The notes under the pieces are model-generated. The model did no database searches. It saw nothing but the letters and a program-made list of their open reading frames with translations, and was not told where the DNA came from. 64,000 nucleotides of DNA from Methylorubrum populi (GTDB lineage Bacteria; Pseudomonadota; Alphaproteobacteria; Rhizobiales; Beijerinckiaceae): positions 631,961-695,960 of the forward strand of contig JAQIIU010000003.1 in NCBI GenBank assembly GCA_036946625.1, given 5' to 3'. How positions within the stretch are numbered: position 1 is the stretch's first letter; each line of letters opens with the position of its first letter. Positions 4,114-33,805 of this stretch are shown piece after piece. The position numbers and the translations under genes were made by a program.

Positions 4114-4128
4114 GTTCATCTTCCGTTC
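4114..4128 (+). promoter_or_regulatory. candidate LexA (SOS) box at the start of the radical SAM/UdgX operon
   Basis: GTTC-ATCTTCC-GTTC matches the alphaproteobacterial LexA operator GTTC-N7-GTTC exactly. The second half-site ends one base before the ATG at 4130. There is no Shine-Dalgarno sequence between it and the start codon, so the mRNA may be leaderless. Such a box would block initiation of the repair operon that follows. About one such match is expected by chance in a 64-kb high-GC window, so position and context carry the argument. Confidence 0.5.
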
Positions 4129-9641: not shown

Positions 9642-9656
9642 GTTCGTGTTATGTTC
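9642..9656 (+). promoter_or_regulatory. candidate LexA (SOS) box between recO and parC
   Basis: GTTC-GTGTTAT-GTTC matches GTTC-N7-GTTC and lies in the 150-base gap between the recO stop and the parC start, about 138 bases before the parC ATG. The spacer is AT-rich, as in known alphaproteobacterial operators. It may control parC transcription. Confidence 0.4.
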
Positions 9657-9794: not shown

Positions 9795-12041
9795 ATGGGC
9801 CAGCCCGTCCTGCCGCCGCCGAGCGACGGCATCGAGAGCGTCGAGCTGAAGACGGCGCTGGAAGAGCGCTACTACGCCTACGCGCTCTCCACGATCATGC
9901 AGCGCGCCCTGCCCGATGCCCGCGACGGCCTGAAGCCGGTGCACCGGCGCATCCTCTACGGCATGCGCCTGCTCCGGCTCGACCCCACGGCGGCCTTCAA
10001 GAAATGCGCGAAGATCGTCGGCGACGTGATGGGCGACTTCCACCCCCACGGCGACCAGGCGATCTACGACGCGCTGGTGCGCCTCAGCCAGGACTTCGCC
10101 CAGCGCTACCCGCTGGTCGACGGCCAGGGCAATTTCGGCAACATCGACGGCGACGGCCCGGCGGCCTACCGCTACACCGAGGCGCGGCTCACCGAGGTGG
10201 CCCGCCTGCTGCTCGACGGGATCGACGAGGACACGGTCGATTTCCGCCCCTCCTACAACGGCGAGAAGGAGGAGCCCGTCGTCCTGCCGGCGGCCTTCCC
10301 GAACCTTCTGGCCAACGGTTCGCAGGGCATCGCGGTCGGCATGGCGACCTCGATCCCGCCGCACAACGCCGCCGAACTCTGCGACGCGGCGCTCTACCTG
10401 ATCCAGAACCGCGAGGCGACCTCCGAGCAGCTCTGCACCTTCGTGCAGGGACCGGACTTCCCCACCGGCGGCATCCTGATCGACTCGCCCGACGTGATCC
10501 GCGAGGCCTACCGCACCGGCCGCGGGGGGTTTCGCGTGCGCGCCCGCTGGGCCAGGGAGGAGCAGGGCCGCGGCACCTGGACCATCGTCGTCACCGAGAT
10601 TCCCTACGGCGTGCCGAAGGCGCGGCTGATCGAGAAGCTCGCGGATCTCCTCCAGGAGAAGAAGCTGCCGCTTCTCGCCGACGTGCGCGACGAGTCGGCC
10701 GAGGACGTGCGCGTCGTGCTGGAACCGCGTTCCCGCTCGGTCGATCCGGTGATGCTGATGGAATCGCTGTTCCGGCTGTCCGAGCTGGAGGCGCGGGTTC
10801 CGCTCAATCTCAACGTGCTCGTCGGCGGCGTCGTGCCCCGGGTGATCGGGCTGGCCGAGTGCTTGCGCGAGTGGGTCGACCATCGCCGCGTCGTGCTCCG
10901 GCGCCGCTCCGGCTACCGCCTCGGCCAGATCGAGCGCCGCCTCGAAATCCTCGGCGGCCTGCTCATCGTCTATCTCGACCTCGACGAGGTGATCCGCATC
11001 ATCCGCGAGGAGGACGAGCCGAAGGCGGCGCTGATGGCCCGGTTCGACCTCACCGAGGTCCAGGCCAACGCCATCCTCGACACCCGCCTGCGCTCACTCC
11101 GCAAGCTCGAAGAGATGGAGCTGAGGCGCGAGTTCGACGAACTCACGAAGGAGAAGGAGGGGATCGAGGCGCTGCTGGCTTCCGAGAAGCTGCAATGGGC
11201 CGACATCACCCGGCAGATCCGCGCGGTGAAGAAGACGTTCGGGCCCGAGACCAAGCTCGGCCGCCGCCGCACCACCCTCGAAAACCCGCCCGACACCGCC
11301 GGCATCGACTTCACCGCCGCCATGGTCGAGCGCGAGCCGATCACCGTCATCCTGTCCGAGAAGGGCTGGATCCGCGCGCTGAAGGGGCACGTCGCCGACC
11401 TGTCGGGCGTGACCTTCAAGGGCGACGACACCCTCAAGGTCGCTTTTCCGAGCGAGACGACGGCAAAAATCCTGCTGCTCGCCTCGAACGGCAAGGTCTT
11501 CACCCTCGAAGCGTCGAAGCTTCCGGGCGGGCGCGGCTTCGGCGATCCGGTGCGGCTGATGGTCGATCTCGACGACGGCACCGAGATCGTCGCGGCGCTG
11601 CCCTACCGGCCCGAGAGCAAGCTGCTGGTCGCCGGCTCGGACGGGCGCGGCTTCATCGCGCCCTCCGACGCGCTGGTCGCCAACACCCGCAAGGGCAAGG
11701 CGATCCTCGGCCTCGACGAGGGGACGCGCGCGGTGCTGCTGGCGCCGGCCGAGGGCGACCACGTCGCCGTCTGCTCGTCCGACAAGCTGATGCTGGTCTT
11801 CCCCGTCTCCGAGGTGACGGAACTCGGCCGCGGCAAGGGCGTGCGCCTGCAGCGCTGCCGCCAGAGCCGGCTCGCCGACGCCTGCGTCTTCATCCTGGCG
11901 GAGGGCCTGCCCTGGCGCGACGGGACCGGTCAGGCGAAGCTCGCTCAAGGCGCGATGCTGGAGAAGTGGATGGGCCACCGCGCCGAGGCCGGCACCCTGA
12001 TGACCCGCAGCTTCCCGAAATTCGAGCGGTTCGGGAAATAG
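9795..12041 (+). CDS. parC: DNA topoisomerase IV subunit A
   Basis: A 748-aa type IIA topoisomerase A subunit, the usual length for alphaproteobacterial ParC. It shows the N-terminal [20 protein letters not shown] segment, the HPHGD motif, and the catalytic tyrosine in [10 protein letters not shown] near residue 124. A coiled-coil gate follows, then a beta-pinwheel C-terminal domain lacking the GQRGxxG box of GyrA, which favours ParC. With ParE it decatenates chromosomes in the cytoplasm. A GTG at 9792 directly precedes the ATG at 9795; either could start it. A candidate LexA box lies upstream. Confidence 0.93.
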
Positions 12042-26436: not shown

Positions 26437-26894
26437 GCCGGAACGCTCCCGATTGCATCGGGCCGGCCTGGCTTCGGCCGCCCGATTTTGATGACTCTAC
26501 GTAACTTCGCCCGTAAGCTGAACCCGGATGGGCCGCACGCCTTTCGGTACGGTCCGCCCGGCTTCAGCGAATTCGCGAGAAATTCCGAGAAATCCCATGA
26601 AACGCCAACGGAGGTTGTCGATTTTGCCGCATGAACGTTCCGCGAACGGAAATGTCCAGCAAACTGAAAACTCCCTTCGCCAGCAGGTAGGCCCTTGCTT
26701 TTCGTATGCACTTCATGGTGATGCTGCGGCTAGGCTAAACCACAGCGATACGGTTGCCTCCCGATGCCTCTCTGCGGTTCACTCCGGCAGTAGAAGCTCT
26801 CCAGGGCACCCGAAGTTGCAGTCCAGAACTCCAGCGCCGCCGACCTGAGGTCCTTGGGTCGGTCCGCGACATCGAACAGGGACCGTGCCGTAAG
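26437..26894. other. intergenic region upstream of the XRE regulator
   Basis: About 460 bases, lower in GC than most of the window. It holds promoters for the ABM gene (minus strand) and probably the XRE gene (plus strand). A GAAC-N7-GAAC match lies at 26633-26647, the reverse of the LexA box form, but it is far from both starts. No gene is seen. Confidence 0.4.
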
Positions 26895-29613: not shown

Positions 29614-32600
29614 TCAGTTCACCTCGACCTGCACGACCCCCGGCACGGCGCGCAGCGCACCCGCCACCTGCGGCGTCGCCTGATAGCGGTCCTTGAGGCG
29701 CACCTCGACCTCGCGATCGCCGCCGTCGAGGATCAGGATCAGCGACACCTCGCCCTCGCCGCGCAGGGTCAGGCGCTGCTGCACCGAACTGAGGGCGCGG
29801 TCGTCGCGCAGGAAGATGCGCATGCCCTTCTGGTGGCGGGCGGCGGCCTGGTCGAGGGGTTCGGCGGCGGTGATGCGGGCGCGCACGTCCTCACCCTCCA
29901 GGTTCGCCTGGATCGTCAGCACCAGCGGACGGCCGGGTTCGAGGATGTCGCGGTACTGGTTGAGACCTTCGGAGAAGATGATCGCCTCGAAATGGCCGGT
30001 CTGGTCCGAGAGGATGACGATGCCGAGCTTGTTGCCGCTCTTGGTGCGCCGCTCCGAGCGGTCGAGCACCGAGGCCGCCACCCGCCCGACGCTGGCCGTG
30101 CCCGCCCGCACGGCCCGGCAGAAATCGGCCCAGGACTGGACCCGCAGCTTTTCGAGGATCGGCCCGTACTCGTCGAGCGGATGGCCCGAGAGGAAGAAGC
30201 CGATGGCGTCGCACTCGCGCTTGAGCTTGTCGGTGTGGGTCCAGAACTCGTGGGGCGGGATGCGCAGGCCCACATCGGCGGACGCGACGCCGCCGAACAT
30301 GTCGGCGATCCCCGAGGTCTCGGCCTCCGCCGCGCCTTGAGCCATCTTCATCATCGGCTCGACCGCGGCCCAGGCCCGCGCCCGGTCGGGCTCGATGCCG
30401 TCGAGGGCGCCCGCCGCGATCAGGTTCTCCAGCGTGCGCTTGTTGACGTGGCGCGGGTTGAGGCGCCGGGCGAAGCAGGCGAGATCCCTGAACGGCCGGG
30501 TCCCGCGCGCGGCGACGATGGATTCCACGGCCGAGCGGCCGACGCCCTTGATCGCGGCGAGCGCGTAGAGGATGCGCCCCTCACGCACGTCGAACACGAC
30601 GCCCGAGGTGTTCACCGACGGCGGCTCCACGGTGATCTTGAGGCGCTGCGCGTCCTGGCGGAATTCGGCGAGCTTGTCGGTGTTGTCGATGTCGAGCGTC
30701 ATGGCCGCGGCCAGGAACTCGACCGGGTAGTTCGCCTTCAGGTAGGCGGTCTGGTAGGTCACCAGGGCGTAGGCCGCCGCGTGGGACTTGTTGAAGCCGT
30801 AATCGGCGAACTTGGCGAGCAGGTCGAAGATCTCGTCCGCCTTGGCCTTGGTCAGCCCGCGCTCGGTGCAGCCCTTGACGAAGCGGTCGCGCTGGGCGTC
30901 CATCTCCGCCTTGATCTTCTTGCCCATGGCGCGGCGGAGCATGTCGGCTTCGCCGAGCGTGTAGCCGGCGAGAACCTTGGCGACCTCCATCACCTGCTCC
31001 TGGTAGACGATGATCCCGAAGGTCTCCTTCAGGATCGGCTCCAGCATCGGGTGCGGGTACCAGCTCGCCTCGTTGCCGGCGTCGCGCCCGAGCTTGCGCT
31101 CGCAATAGACCGGGATGTTGGCCATCGGGCCCGGGCGGTAGAGCGCCACCAGGGCGATGATGTCCTCCAGGCGGTCGGCCTGCATCTCGCACAGCGCCTT
31201 TCGCATGCCGGCCGATTCCACTTGGAACACCGCGACGGTCTCGCCGCGCCCCATCGGCTCGTATGTCTTCGGGTCGTCCAGCGGGATCCGGGCGAGATCG
31301 ACCTCGATGCCGCGCTGCTTGAGCAGGTCGGTGCAGCACCGCAGCATCGTGAGGGTCTTGAGTCCCAAGAAATCGAACTTCACCAGCCCCGCCTGCTCGA
31401 CCCACTTCATGTTGAACTGGGTCACCCGCATGCCGGTCTTCGGGTCTCGGTAGAGCGGCACCAGCTCTTCGAGCGGCCGGTCGCCGATCACCACGCCGGC
31501 GGCGTGGGTCGAGGCGTGGCGGTGCAGGCCCTCCAGCTTCTTCGAGATCTCGATGAGGCGGGCGACGATCGGCTCCTCCCCGATCGCCTGCTGCAGCTTG
31601 GGCTCGCCCTCGATCGCCTGGGCCAGCGTCACGGGGTTGGCCGGGTTCTGCGGCACGAGCTTGGTCAGCTTGTCGACCTGTCCGTAGGGCATCTCCAGCA
31701 CGCGGCCGACGTCGCGCAGCACGCCGCGGGCGAGCAGCGTACCGAAGGTGATGATCTGCCCGACCTGGCCCTCGCCGTAACGCTGCTGCACGTAACGGAT
31801 CACCCGCTCGCGGCCCTCGACGCAGAAGTCGATGTCGAAATCCGGCATCGAGACGCGTTCGGGGTTGAGGAAGCGCTCGAACAGCAGGCCGAAGCGAAGC
31901 GGATCGAGGTCGGTGATGAGGAGGGACCACGCCACCAGCGAGCCGGCGCCCGAGCCGCGGCCCGGCCCGACCGGGATGTCGTGGTCCTTGGCCCACTTGA
32001 TGAAGTCCGAGACGATCAGGAAGTAGCCCGGGAACTTCATCTTGACGATGACGTCGAGCTCGAACTTCAGGCGCGCGCGGTAGTCGTCCTCGGAGAAGCC
32101 CGGGGCGATGCCGTGCTGCTTCAGCCGCAGGTCCAGTCCGGCTTCGGCCTGGCGGCACAGCTCGGTCGGCTCGTCGGCGGCCACCGCCTGCACCGGCGCG
32201 CCTGCGGCTTCGGCGAGCGCTTCGGCCATCGGCGGAGTCTCGCCCGCCGCGACGCTGGCGAAGTTCGGCAGGATCGGCTTGCGGGTGCGCGCCCGGTAGG
32301 AGCAGCGCATGGCGATCTCGACGGTGGCCGAGAGCGCATCCGGCAGGTCGCGAAAAAGCTCCATCGTCTCGGCGCGCGTCGTGAAGGCGTGGCGCGGCGT
32401 CAGCCGGCGGCGGCGCTCGTCCGAGACGAGGCGCCCTTCCGCGATCGCCAGCAGGGCGTCGTGGGCCTCGTAATCGCCGGGCTTGGCGAAGAACGGCTCG
32501 TTCGTGGCGACGATGCCGAGGCCGTGGCCGTCGGCGAGCCGCAGCAGGTCACGCTCGACCGCGCGCTCGTCGTCGAGGCCGTGGCGCTGGATCTCGACGT

Positions 32601-33135
32601 AGAGACGCTCCTCGCCGAAGGCGGTCTTCAGGAATTCGAGGCGCCTGGCGGCCTGGTCGTGCCGCCCGGCGCGGAGCGCCGTGTCGAGCGGACCGGTGAG
32701 GCCGCCGGAGAGCGCGATCAATCCCTCGACGGCACCTTCCAGCGCCGCGACCGCGACCCGCGGCGGCTCGCCGAGCTGCCCGTCGAAATAGGCCCGGCTC
32801 GCGAGCCGCAGCAGGTTGCCGTAGCCGGCCTCGTCCTGAGCCAGCAGCACGATGTTGGCGCAGCCCGCTTGGGACAGGCGCGCCATCGGGTCGGGCGCCT
32901 CGAAGCAGATCGTGAGCTGCAGGCCCGCGATCGGCTGGATGCCGGTGCCGGCGGCCTTCTCCGAGAATTCCAGCGCGCCGAACAGGTTGTTGGTGTCGGT
33001 GAGCGCGAGCGCGGGCTGCCGGTCGGCGGCGGCCGCCTTGACGAGGTCGGCGACCTTCACCCCGCCTTCGAGCAGCGAGTAGGACGAATGGACGTGGAGA
33101 TGGACGAATCCGACTTCTTTGAGCGTGCGCGCCAT
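29614..33135 (-). CDS. dnaE: DNA polymerase III alpha subunit
   Basis: A 1173-aa replicative polymerase. It carries an N-terminal PHP domain (HLHVHSSYSLLEG), then the C-family polymerase core with GPGRGSGAGSLVAW and the catalytic PDFDIDFC. Tandem HhH motifs follow near residue 880 and an OB fold near 1000. The length and domain order are those of housekeeping DnaE1, not the damage-induced DnaE2. The ATG at 33135 gives the normal start (MARTLKEVGFVHLHVH). It precedes cobM on the same strand. Long open frames on the opposite strand are GC-driven shadows. Confidence 0.96.
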   Translation of the reverse strand: MARTLKEVGFVHLHVHSSYSLLEGGVKVADLVKAAAADRQPALALTDTNNLFGALEFSEKAAGTGIQPIAGLQLTICFEAPDPMARLSQAGCANIVLLAQDEAGYGNLLRLASRAYFDGQLGEPPRVAVAALEGAVEGLIALSGGLTGPLDTALRAGRHDQAARRLEFLKTAFGEERLYVEIQRHGLDDERAVERDLLRLADGHGLGIVATNEPFFAKPGDYEAHDALLAIAEGRLVSDERRRRLTPRHAFTTRAETMELFRDLPDALSATVEIAMRCSYRARTRKPILPNFASVAAGETPPMAEALAEAAGAPVQAVAADEPTELCRQAEAGLDLRLKQHGIAPGFSEDDYRARLKFELDVIVKMKFPGYFLIVSDFIKWAKDHDIPVGPGRGSGAGSLVAWSLLITDLDPLRFGLLFERFLNPERVSMPDFDIDFCVEGRERVIRYVQQRYGEGQVGQIITFGTLLARGVLRDVGRVLEMPYGQVDKLTKLVPQNPANPVTLAQAIEGEPKLQQAIGEEPIVARLIEISKKLEGLHRHASTHAAGVVIGDRPLEELVPLYRDPKTGMRVTQFNMKWVEQAGLVKFDFLGLKTLTMLRCCTDLLKQRGIEVDLARIPLDDPKTYEPMGRGETVAVFQVESAGMRKALCEMQADRLEDIIALVALYRPGPMANIPVYCERKLGRDAGNEASWYPHPMLEPILKETFGIIVYQEQVMEVAKVLAGYTLGEADMLRRAMGKKIKAEMDAQRDRFVKGCTERGLTKAKADEIFDLLAKFADYGFNKSHAAAYALVTYQTAYLKANYPVEFLAAAMTLDIDNTDKLAEFRQDAQRLKITVEPPSVNTSGVVFDVREGRILYALAAIKGVGRSAVESIVAARGTRPFRDLACFARRLNPRHVNKRTLENLIAAGALDGIEPDRARAWAAVEPMMKMAQGAAEAETSGIADMFGGVASADVGLRIPPHEFWTHTDKLKRECDAIGFFLSGHPLDEYGPILEKLRVQSWADFCRAVRAGTASVGRVAASVLDRSERRTKSGNKLGIVILSDQTGHFEAIIFSEGLNQYRDILEPGRPLVLTIQANLEGEDVRARITAAEPLDQAAARHQKGMRIFLRDDRALSSVQQRLTLRGEGEVSLILILDGGDREVEVRLKDRYQATPQVAGALRAVPGVVQVEVN

Positions 33136-33340: not shown

Positions 33341-33445
33341 TTAATGGATCGGCGCCAAGGCGACCGCCCAGAGCGCGACCGCACCGAAGAGCAGGCCGAA
33401 GGCGGTGAACTCGACGAGGCCGGTGAACAGCACGCGCTTGGTCAT
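33341..33445 (-). CDS. 34-aa single-TM protein, probably SOS-induced
   Basis: It reads MTKRVLFTGLVEFTAFGL..., with two or three basic residues at the N-terminus, then one hydrophobic helix covering almost the rest, and ends APIH. A good Shine-Dalgarno (AGGGAG) lies 8 bases before the ATG. A LexA box sits between a TTTACA -35-like hexamer (33495-33500) and the -10 position, 32 bases before the start. Small SOS-induced inner-membrane proteins in other bacteria block division (SidA in Caulobacter) or depolarise the membrane (TisB in E. coli); this gene has the same size, topology and control. The function is inferred from these features, not from similarity. Confidence 0.65.
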   Translation of the reverse strand: MTKRVLFTGLVEFTAFGLLFGAVALWAVALAPIH

Positions 33446-33805
33446 GGCTTCCACTCCCTGTTGACGGGGCGAGTTTTGTTCTTGTTTTGTTCTGTGTAAA
33501 GACGTGGACGCGCTCGGACCGGCGAGATGGTGAACGATGTGTTGTTGGCGCCACGTCGGCCGCGGGTTCCAGTGCCCATGTGGTACGAAGCGGCAACAGC
33601 GCGCATTTCTCCGACACCCGGATTCGCCTGCCGATTGACAGACGAGAGCCCGCGGGCGCACGCGATGGGCAAGGATCCGCGGCCTCACGAATGCCGGTCG
33701 CCGGGTCCGACGCGGCTTCCGCGGGAGGGCTGGCGGATGCCGGCTCACCCGTGGGCACGACACCGACCCAGCCGACGCCGTTCGGCGCGAGAAGACGTCC
33801 GGATC
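33446..33805. other. divergent region between the 34-aa protein and the glycosyltransferase operon
   Basis: About 360 bases. The part at 33471-33500 is the promoter and LexA box of the small membrane protein. The remainder is open in one frame on the plus strand but shows no glycosyltransferase similarity before the ATG at 33806. It probably includes the promoter of the glycan operon. Confidence 0.5.
33478..33492 (-). promoter_or_regulatory. LexA (SOS) box upstream of the 34-aa membrane protein
   Basis: GTTC-TTGTTTT-GTTC on the plus strand (GAACAAAACAAGAAC on the coding strand) is a near-ideal alphaproteobacterial LexA operator, including the T-rich spacer. It fills the gap between TTTACA (33495-33500) and the expected -10 (33472-33477, AAAACT), exactly where a repressor would block RNA polymerase. 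The window's other GTTC-N7-GTTC matches have less T-rich spacers. Confidence 0.75.

Follow-up and report, generated by a model that had tools for sequence, protein, structure and literature searches.

A conserved 34-aa membrane protein between a LexA box and dnaE in Methylobacterium, a candidate SidA-type SOS division inhibitor

Analysing a 64,000-nt stretch of DNA (hereafter the window, taken at its full length), we recovered a gene of only 34 codons that encodes a predicted single-helix membrane protein and stands between a predicted LexA (SOS) box and dnaE. We propose, with a probability of roughly 70%, that this small gene represents in Methylobacterium an ancient alphaproteobacterial SOS gene, placed between a LexA box and dnaE, that it is the positional equivalent of Caulobacter sidA and that its product, by analogy, would act as a SidA-type division inhibitor. 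Two observations speak for a division inhibitor rather than a free membrane toxin: conservation along the helix favours one face, and the gene belongs to the core genome of the genus.

The complete small gene announced by a preliminary description of the locus, with AGGGAG 8 nt before an ATG followed by 34 codons, is present in the sequence in every element (Table 1). The promoter proposed in the same description is likewise there, with its TTTACA and its 15-bp box, and TTtaca is the consensus of the -35-like site across 110 aligned promoters of the genus, but the GTTC-N7-GTTC form in which the box had been given belongs to the opposite strand, the gene itself reading GAAC-N7-GAAC (GAACAAAACAAGAAC, or GTTCTTGTTTTGTTC on the plus strand). 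Furthermore, the -10 element, AAAACT, is a weak one, and a generic scan called no sigma-70 promoter around the small gene. A generic scan for terminators found none on the strand of the small gene, and none between it and dnaE, which is the next gene there, on the same strand and 205 nt further 3'.

Table 1. Position of the small gene, its predicted control signals and dnaE in the window
Feature	Position	Strand	Evidence and remarks
Small gene, 34-aa single-helix membrane protein (MTKRVLFTGLVEFTAFGLLFGAVALWAVALAPIH)	33341..33445, stop codon included	(-)	ATG at 33445-33443, 34 codons, TAA ending at 33341; sequence, homologues, dN/dS, predicted helix
Ribosome-binding site AGGGAG	33454..33459	(-)	8 nt ahead of the small-gene ATG; direct sequence reading
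LexA (SOS) box GAACAAAACAAGAAC	33478..33492	(-)	47 nt 5' of the small-gene ATG; predicted, from sequence
-35-like TTTACA	33495..33500	(-)	2 nt 5' of the LexA box; direct sequence reading
dnaE (DNA polymerase III alpha)	29614..33135	(-)	Pfam PHP, DNA_pol3_alpha, finger and HHH_6 domains; synteny; start 33135 chosen by eye, at MARTLKEV

Homologues of the small protein were detected by protein search in 110 of the 111 genomes of the genus, the sole miss being a 70%-complete assembly. All 110 homologous frames are open, ATG-started and 34, 35 or 38 aa long, and none carries the stop codons or frameshifts that the preliminary description had regarded as a possible objection. Among 1500 random pairs drawn from 97 distinct coding sequences, the 653 that could be scored gave a median dN/dS of 0.25, and substitutions in 537 close pairs were distributed as 1423, 378 and 3289 over codon positions 1, 2 and 3. 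These patterns indicate that the small protein is under purifying selection, which rules out a spurious open reading frame (ORF), and we regard the small gene as a real gene with near certainty.

The box is as constant as the protein. Loci of the genus were picked by protein and not by box, and a perfect GAAC-N7-GAAC, searched with a regular expression that required the half-sites, was found 44–62 nt before the ATG in 110 of 110, three loci having an additional box of GTTC form. In three cases (L091, L092 and L102) both half-sites are intact while only 1–2 of the 7 spacer letters agree with the consensus; these GC-rich spacers (e.g. GAACGGAGAGCGAAC) constitute a natural test of what LexA reads.

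At the scale of the window, four boxes of the GTTC/GAAC-N7 type were counted where 1.37 were expected, and because 4 of 100 shuffles reach this count, one box alone is little proof. Two of them, at 26633-26647 and 4114-4128, match GTTC-N7-GTTC with spacers that are mixed or rich in GC, roughly what chance would give. The whole genome (4.79 Mb) contains four copies of the strict form GAACAWAAYNNGAAC, and none when the pattern is read backwards; besides the small-gene box, they are found at parC, a radA-like gene and a DUF6456 gene. In addition, the lexA gene of this genome has a GAAC-N7-GAAC box upstream. A chance box is ruled out by the conservation throughout the genus together with the excess of boxes upstream of dnaE over shuffled sequences (see below), and the small gene is very probably under LexA control, as predicted from these sequence comparisons.

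The parC box (GAACATAACACGAAC, window 9642-9656, minus-strand reading) stands ~140 nt before the start, at 9795, of the gene for topoisomerase IV subunit A (Pfam DNA_topoisoIV); in Sinorhizobium, parE is the gene reported as an SOS gene in the part of the literature consulted (PMC3323433). Elsewhere in the genome, strict boxes are located at the start of the DUF6456 gene (L233:1501-1515) and ~200 nt before the radA-like ATPase gene (L232:1501-1515). Of these two, the DUF6456 gene may represent an SOS gene not previously described.

The neighbourhood of the small gene is less uniform than its box. We identified dnaE at 102 of the 110 loci of the genus; across 191 box-bearing locus entries, in which some genomes were entered twice, it follows 3' of the small gene on the same strand, 9–573 nt past the stop codon (median 151). 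Among the eight loci of the genus without dnaE, one (L052) reaches a contig end and seven share a rearranged context, with a convergent gene after the small gene and no dnaE within the flanks examined (~500 nt either way, 1.5 kb for one genome). Linkage to dnaE is therefore not a constant feature. Both the box and the small protein are retained in these seven genomes, so that box and gene together are a unit independent of dnaE. In one Microvirga genome (L135), dnaE is divergent from the small gene. The convergent gene of the rearranged clade (L055-L061, L113) encodes a ~350-aa protein with an N-terminal membrane segment, OmpA/MotB-like by eye only.

Beyond the genus, profile A1 found the small protein in 14 Microvirga genomes of the family sample, each with a perfect box. 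Twelve of these loci (within L123-L136) carry a tandem pair of LexA boxes ahead of the small gene, spaced 21 nt apart, which suggests a tighter or cooperative repression. When applied to 297 genomes of the order, the same profile yielded 14 new loci, 4 with a box and 10 without a perfect one; 16 further candidates comprised 8 with a perfect box, 6 with 7 of its 8 letters (one of these, L164, is apparently fortuitous) and 2 without box. In three genomes from a single genus of the family (g15), a 33-aa member is preceded by 1–2 boxes with 7 of 8 letters, and no dnaE lies within 500 nt on either side.

Profile A2 matched 58 of the 297 order genomes at E ≤ 0.05. The 26 best new loci, two entries of which repeat Methylobacterium genomes, carry a perfect box in 25 cases and one with 7 of 8 letters in the last. 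Weaker hits were considered for 20 of the 30 listed, selected mostly for short frames, the 10 omitted having mostly long ones: 15 have a perfect box, 2 a box with 7 of 8 letters and 3 none. Over 289 genomes of the class, A2 returned 17 new loci with a box in only one, itself from the window's family; the other 16, all outside the family, had no box, and this search by protein alone thus produced no credible member outside the order. Members outside the order were found only via dnaE, by searching its upstream regions. Taken together, these profile matches indicate that many families of the order possess distant homologues, most of them lying behind a LexA box and just 5' of dnaE. The frame beside dnaE with its upstream box, which the preliminary description had proposed to look for in relatives, is thus conserved in the genus, in Microvirga and at many loci of the order. 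Its candidate, an SOS-induced division inhibitor or membrane toxin, gains support from this retention of frame and box, the division role being put forward by analogy.

To avoid circularity, we also approached the locus from the polymerase, searching for the N-terminus of DnaE and then examining the upstream regions, where the unit was defined as a perfect box followed by a hydrophobic ORF of 22–60 aa with a ribosome-binding-like site. In the order, 50 regions were obtained from 62 dnaE-positive genomes among 67 searched, including the window's own locus and one more of its family; the unit was present in 26, one region had a box with 7 of 8 letters and 23 had none. One positive (G399), which differs from the others by its GTG start, is probably spurious, and two regions scored as absent (G361 and G406) do possess the unit farther upstream, with a box of 7 of 8 letters in G406. 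In the class, 90 regions were considered out of 175 dnaE-positive genomes among 220, 60 of them hand-picked mostly from larger genomes; 15 contained the unit, and once the 3 from the window's family are set aside, 12 of the 87 regions outside the order remain, with a further region having 7 of 8 box letters; 74 of the 90 lacked it by this definition. Either the unit is not universal or, in the negative regions, it is too divergent, too distant or lost.

The box part of this definition, the only part covered by the shuffle control, exceeds chance in both samples. Boxes within 500 nt of dnaE were found in 28 of the 50 order regions against a shuffle mean of 0.77 (maximum 4 over 100 shuffles), with 0 of 30 in dnaE coding controls, and in 18 of the 87 regions outside the order against a mean of 1.11 (maximum 4), with 1 of 27 in the coding controls. 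At least five class boxes, of GTTC form near the dnaE match, had no small ORF; they may be due to chance or serve dnaE itself.

The protein is built as a very short single membrane helix, as indicated by its 34 aa, its hydropathy (best 17-residue mean of 2.25) and the AlphaFold2 prediction of one helix over residues 2–33 (mean pLDDT 95.6, pTM 0.54). A family motif emerged from 239 proteins (159 distinct, ~53 after weighting), all extracted only behind boxes, with K or R at position 4 (61%), an acid at position 9 (71%) or 12 (34%), F19 (75%) and W26 (79%); in this numbering the window protein has its acid as E12 and an L at position 19. Over positions 6–30, conservation showed its strongest period at 100 degrees per residue (p 0.005, from a permutation run on this period alone, chosen after viewing 13 angles). 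Positions 12, 19, 26 and 30 fall within 20 degrees of the conserved direction; position 8, which is poorly conserved, falls there too, and the commonest acid site of the wider family, position 9, is 80 degrees off that direction. The most conserved sites are W26 and position 19, and the preference for one helix face fits docking on a membrane partner.

Despite this conservation, the family escaped the reference libraries. None of 10 members exceeded the Pfam cut-off (best E 0.54), no match to NCBIfam was found among 10 members or among 6 (best E 0.037 for the 6), 5 members tried against PHROGs gave a best E of 0.25, and 0 of 2 matched PADLOC. No solved relative was found in the PDB, where the best match (E 1.9) was an antibody chain. 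The window protein matched nothing in plasmids, one distant member nothing in plasmids or phages and profile A4 nothing in viral contigs, and we accordingly rejected a phage or plasmid gene.

The closest known system is SidA of Caulobacter crescentus, described as an SOS protein of the inner membrane, 29 aa long, whose action on FtsW blocks division (PMC4211646). As reported in the texts consulted, SidA is ~30 aa long, inner-membrane and LexA-controlled, in line with the size, helix and predicted LexA box of the window protein (PMC4211646, PMC12700426); the two differ in length (29 vs 34 aa), and the likeness rests on size, topology, box and a position deduced as follows. Published locus tags give dnaE as CC1926 and lexA as CC1902 (PMC1839093), lexA also as CCNA_01979 (PMC11535069) and sidA as CCNA_02004 (PMC10769358). 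The two lexA tags are offset by 77 and dnaE should therefore be ~CCNA_02003, so that, by this arithmetic, we infer that sidA adjoins dnaE. The position beside dnaE is thus seen directly in the window and at most loci of the order, and comes from the locus tags of papers on the Caulobacter side. SOS (LexA) regulation of dnaE has been reported earlier in Caulobacter and dnaE also figures in an alphaproteobacterial survey (PMC3323433), a regulation that would be expected if box, sidA and dnaE share a locus; the portion of that article examined mentions no small ORF between the site and dnaE. The preliminary description claimed no homology with SidA. Evidence from position would reach past it, since the succession of box, small ORF and dnaE is found repeatedly within the order and in some of the rest of the class, to which the sidA locus tags are added.

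A literature search, conducted largely at the level of titles and abstracts and with the original Caulobacter studies outside its scope, met no SidA homologue outside Caulobacter. By length, DidA of Caulobacter (71 aa), YneA of Bacillus and SosA of Staphylococcus are all larger than the window protein. DidA is reported to be a small membrane protein that inhibits division and is induced upon DNA damage but, unlike the window gene, it is not under LexA control, being driven by DriD, and it binds FtsN (PMC4211646). YneA and SosA are described as SOS-induced division inhibitors, YneA interacting with FtsW and blocking septal wall synthesis; they belong to Gram-positive bacteria and are likened here to the window protein by description only.

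Among other readings, the one that survives best, though we consider it unlikely, is an SOS membrane peptide like TisB or DinQ, which would lower membrane potential and growth instead of targeting the division machinery. TisB of E. coli is a short, SOS-linked, single-helix peptide. DinQ of the same species is described in similar terms, as toxic and accompanied by antisense RNAs. The window gene resembles both in its comparable size, single predicted helix, short basic N-terminus and predicted LexA box, but it differs from them as a core gene of its genus (110 of 111 genomes) that usually sits beside dnaE; the searches of plasmids, phages and viral contigs (plasmids only for the window protein) gave no match, and the conservation peaking at W26 and position 19, with one face favoured, suggests a specific partner.

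Slightly less probable still is an SOS-induced regulator of some other membrane protein, such as a protease, a transporter or a respiratory complex, that would have no direct effect on division. Many single-helix bacterial proteins regulate other membrane proteins, and one conserved helix face also fits such partners. The position deduced for sidA beside dnaE in Caulobacter, where SidA is a proven division inhibitor (PMC4211646), speaks against this reading. Finally, a translated leader serving solely the SOS control of dnaE, with an inert peptide, could draw on the same-strand dnaE that follows at short distance, on the lack of a visible terminator and on the reported LexA regulation of Caulobacter dnaE (PMC3323433), but as a sole role it is rejected by the dN/dS of the small gene and the seven Methylobacterium genomes that keep box and gene with a convergent gene next and no dnaE in the stretch examined, and it is made very improbable as well by residue-specific conservation across very divergent sequences and by the divergent dnaE of one Microvirga genome.

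Under the preferred reading of a SidA-type division inhibitor, LexA bound to the box between -35 and -10 would keep the small gene off in an undamaged cell. Upon DNA damage, RecA-driven cleavage of LexA would free the promoter, and the 34-aa protein would be made and inserted into the inner membrane, the basic N-terminus facing the cytoplasm. The helix face formed by E12, L/F19 and W26, seven residues apart, would then dock on a membrane partner, most likely, by analogy with SidA, the septal cell-wall synthase complex FtsW/FtsI/FtsN, and hold division until repair is complete. With no terminator seen ahead of dnaE, read-through may simultaneously raise DnaE.

At a broader scale, we lean slightly towards the view that a damage-checkpoint unit was already present in the last ancestor shared by much of the Alphaproteobacteria, a unit in which one LexA box drove both a division inhibitor of ~30 residues, of the FtsW type, and the replicative polymerase. 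SidA would then be one visible member of a class-wide and almost unannotated family, recognizable by an acid near the helix start, F19 and W26, and this family would account for the SOS division inhibitor still missing in the Hyphomicrobiales. The small gene illustrates that core genes of ~30 codons can escape family libraries. If the unit is as proposed, division arrest and replicase supply would be tied to one damage-controlled promoter and, if its members form one family, marked by the LexA box, the motif and the dnaE neighbour, symbionts, methylotrophs and others would gain an SOS division inhibitor.
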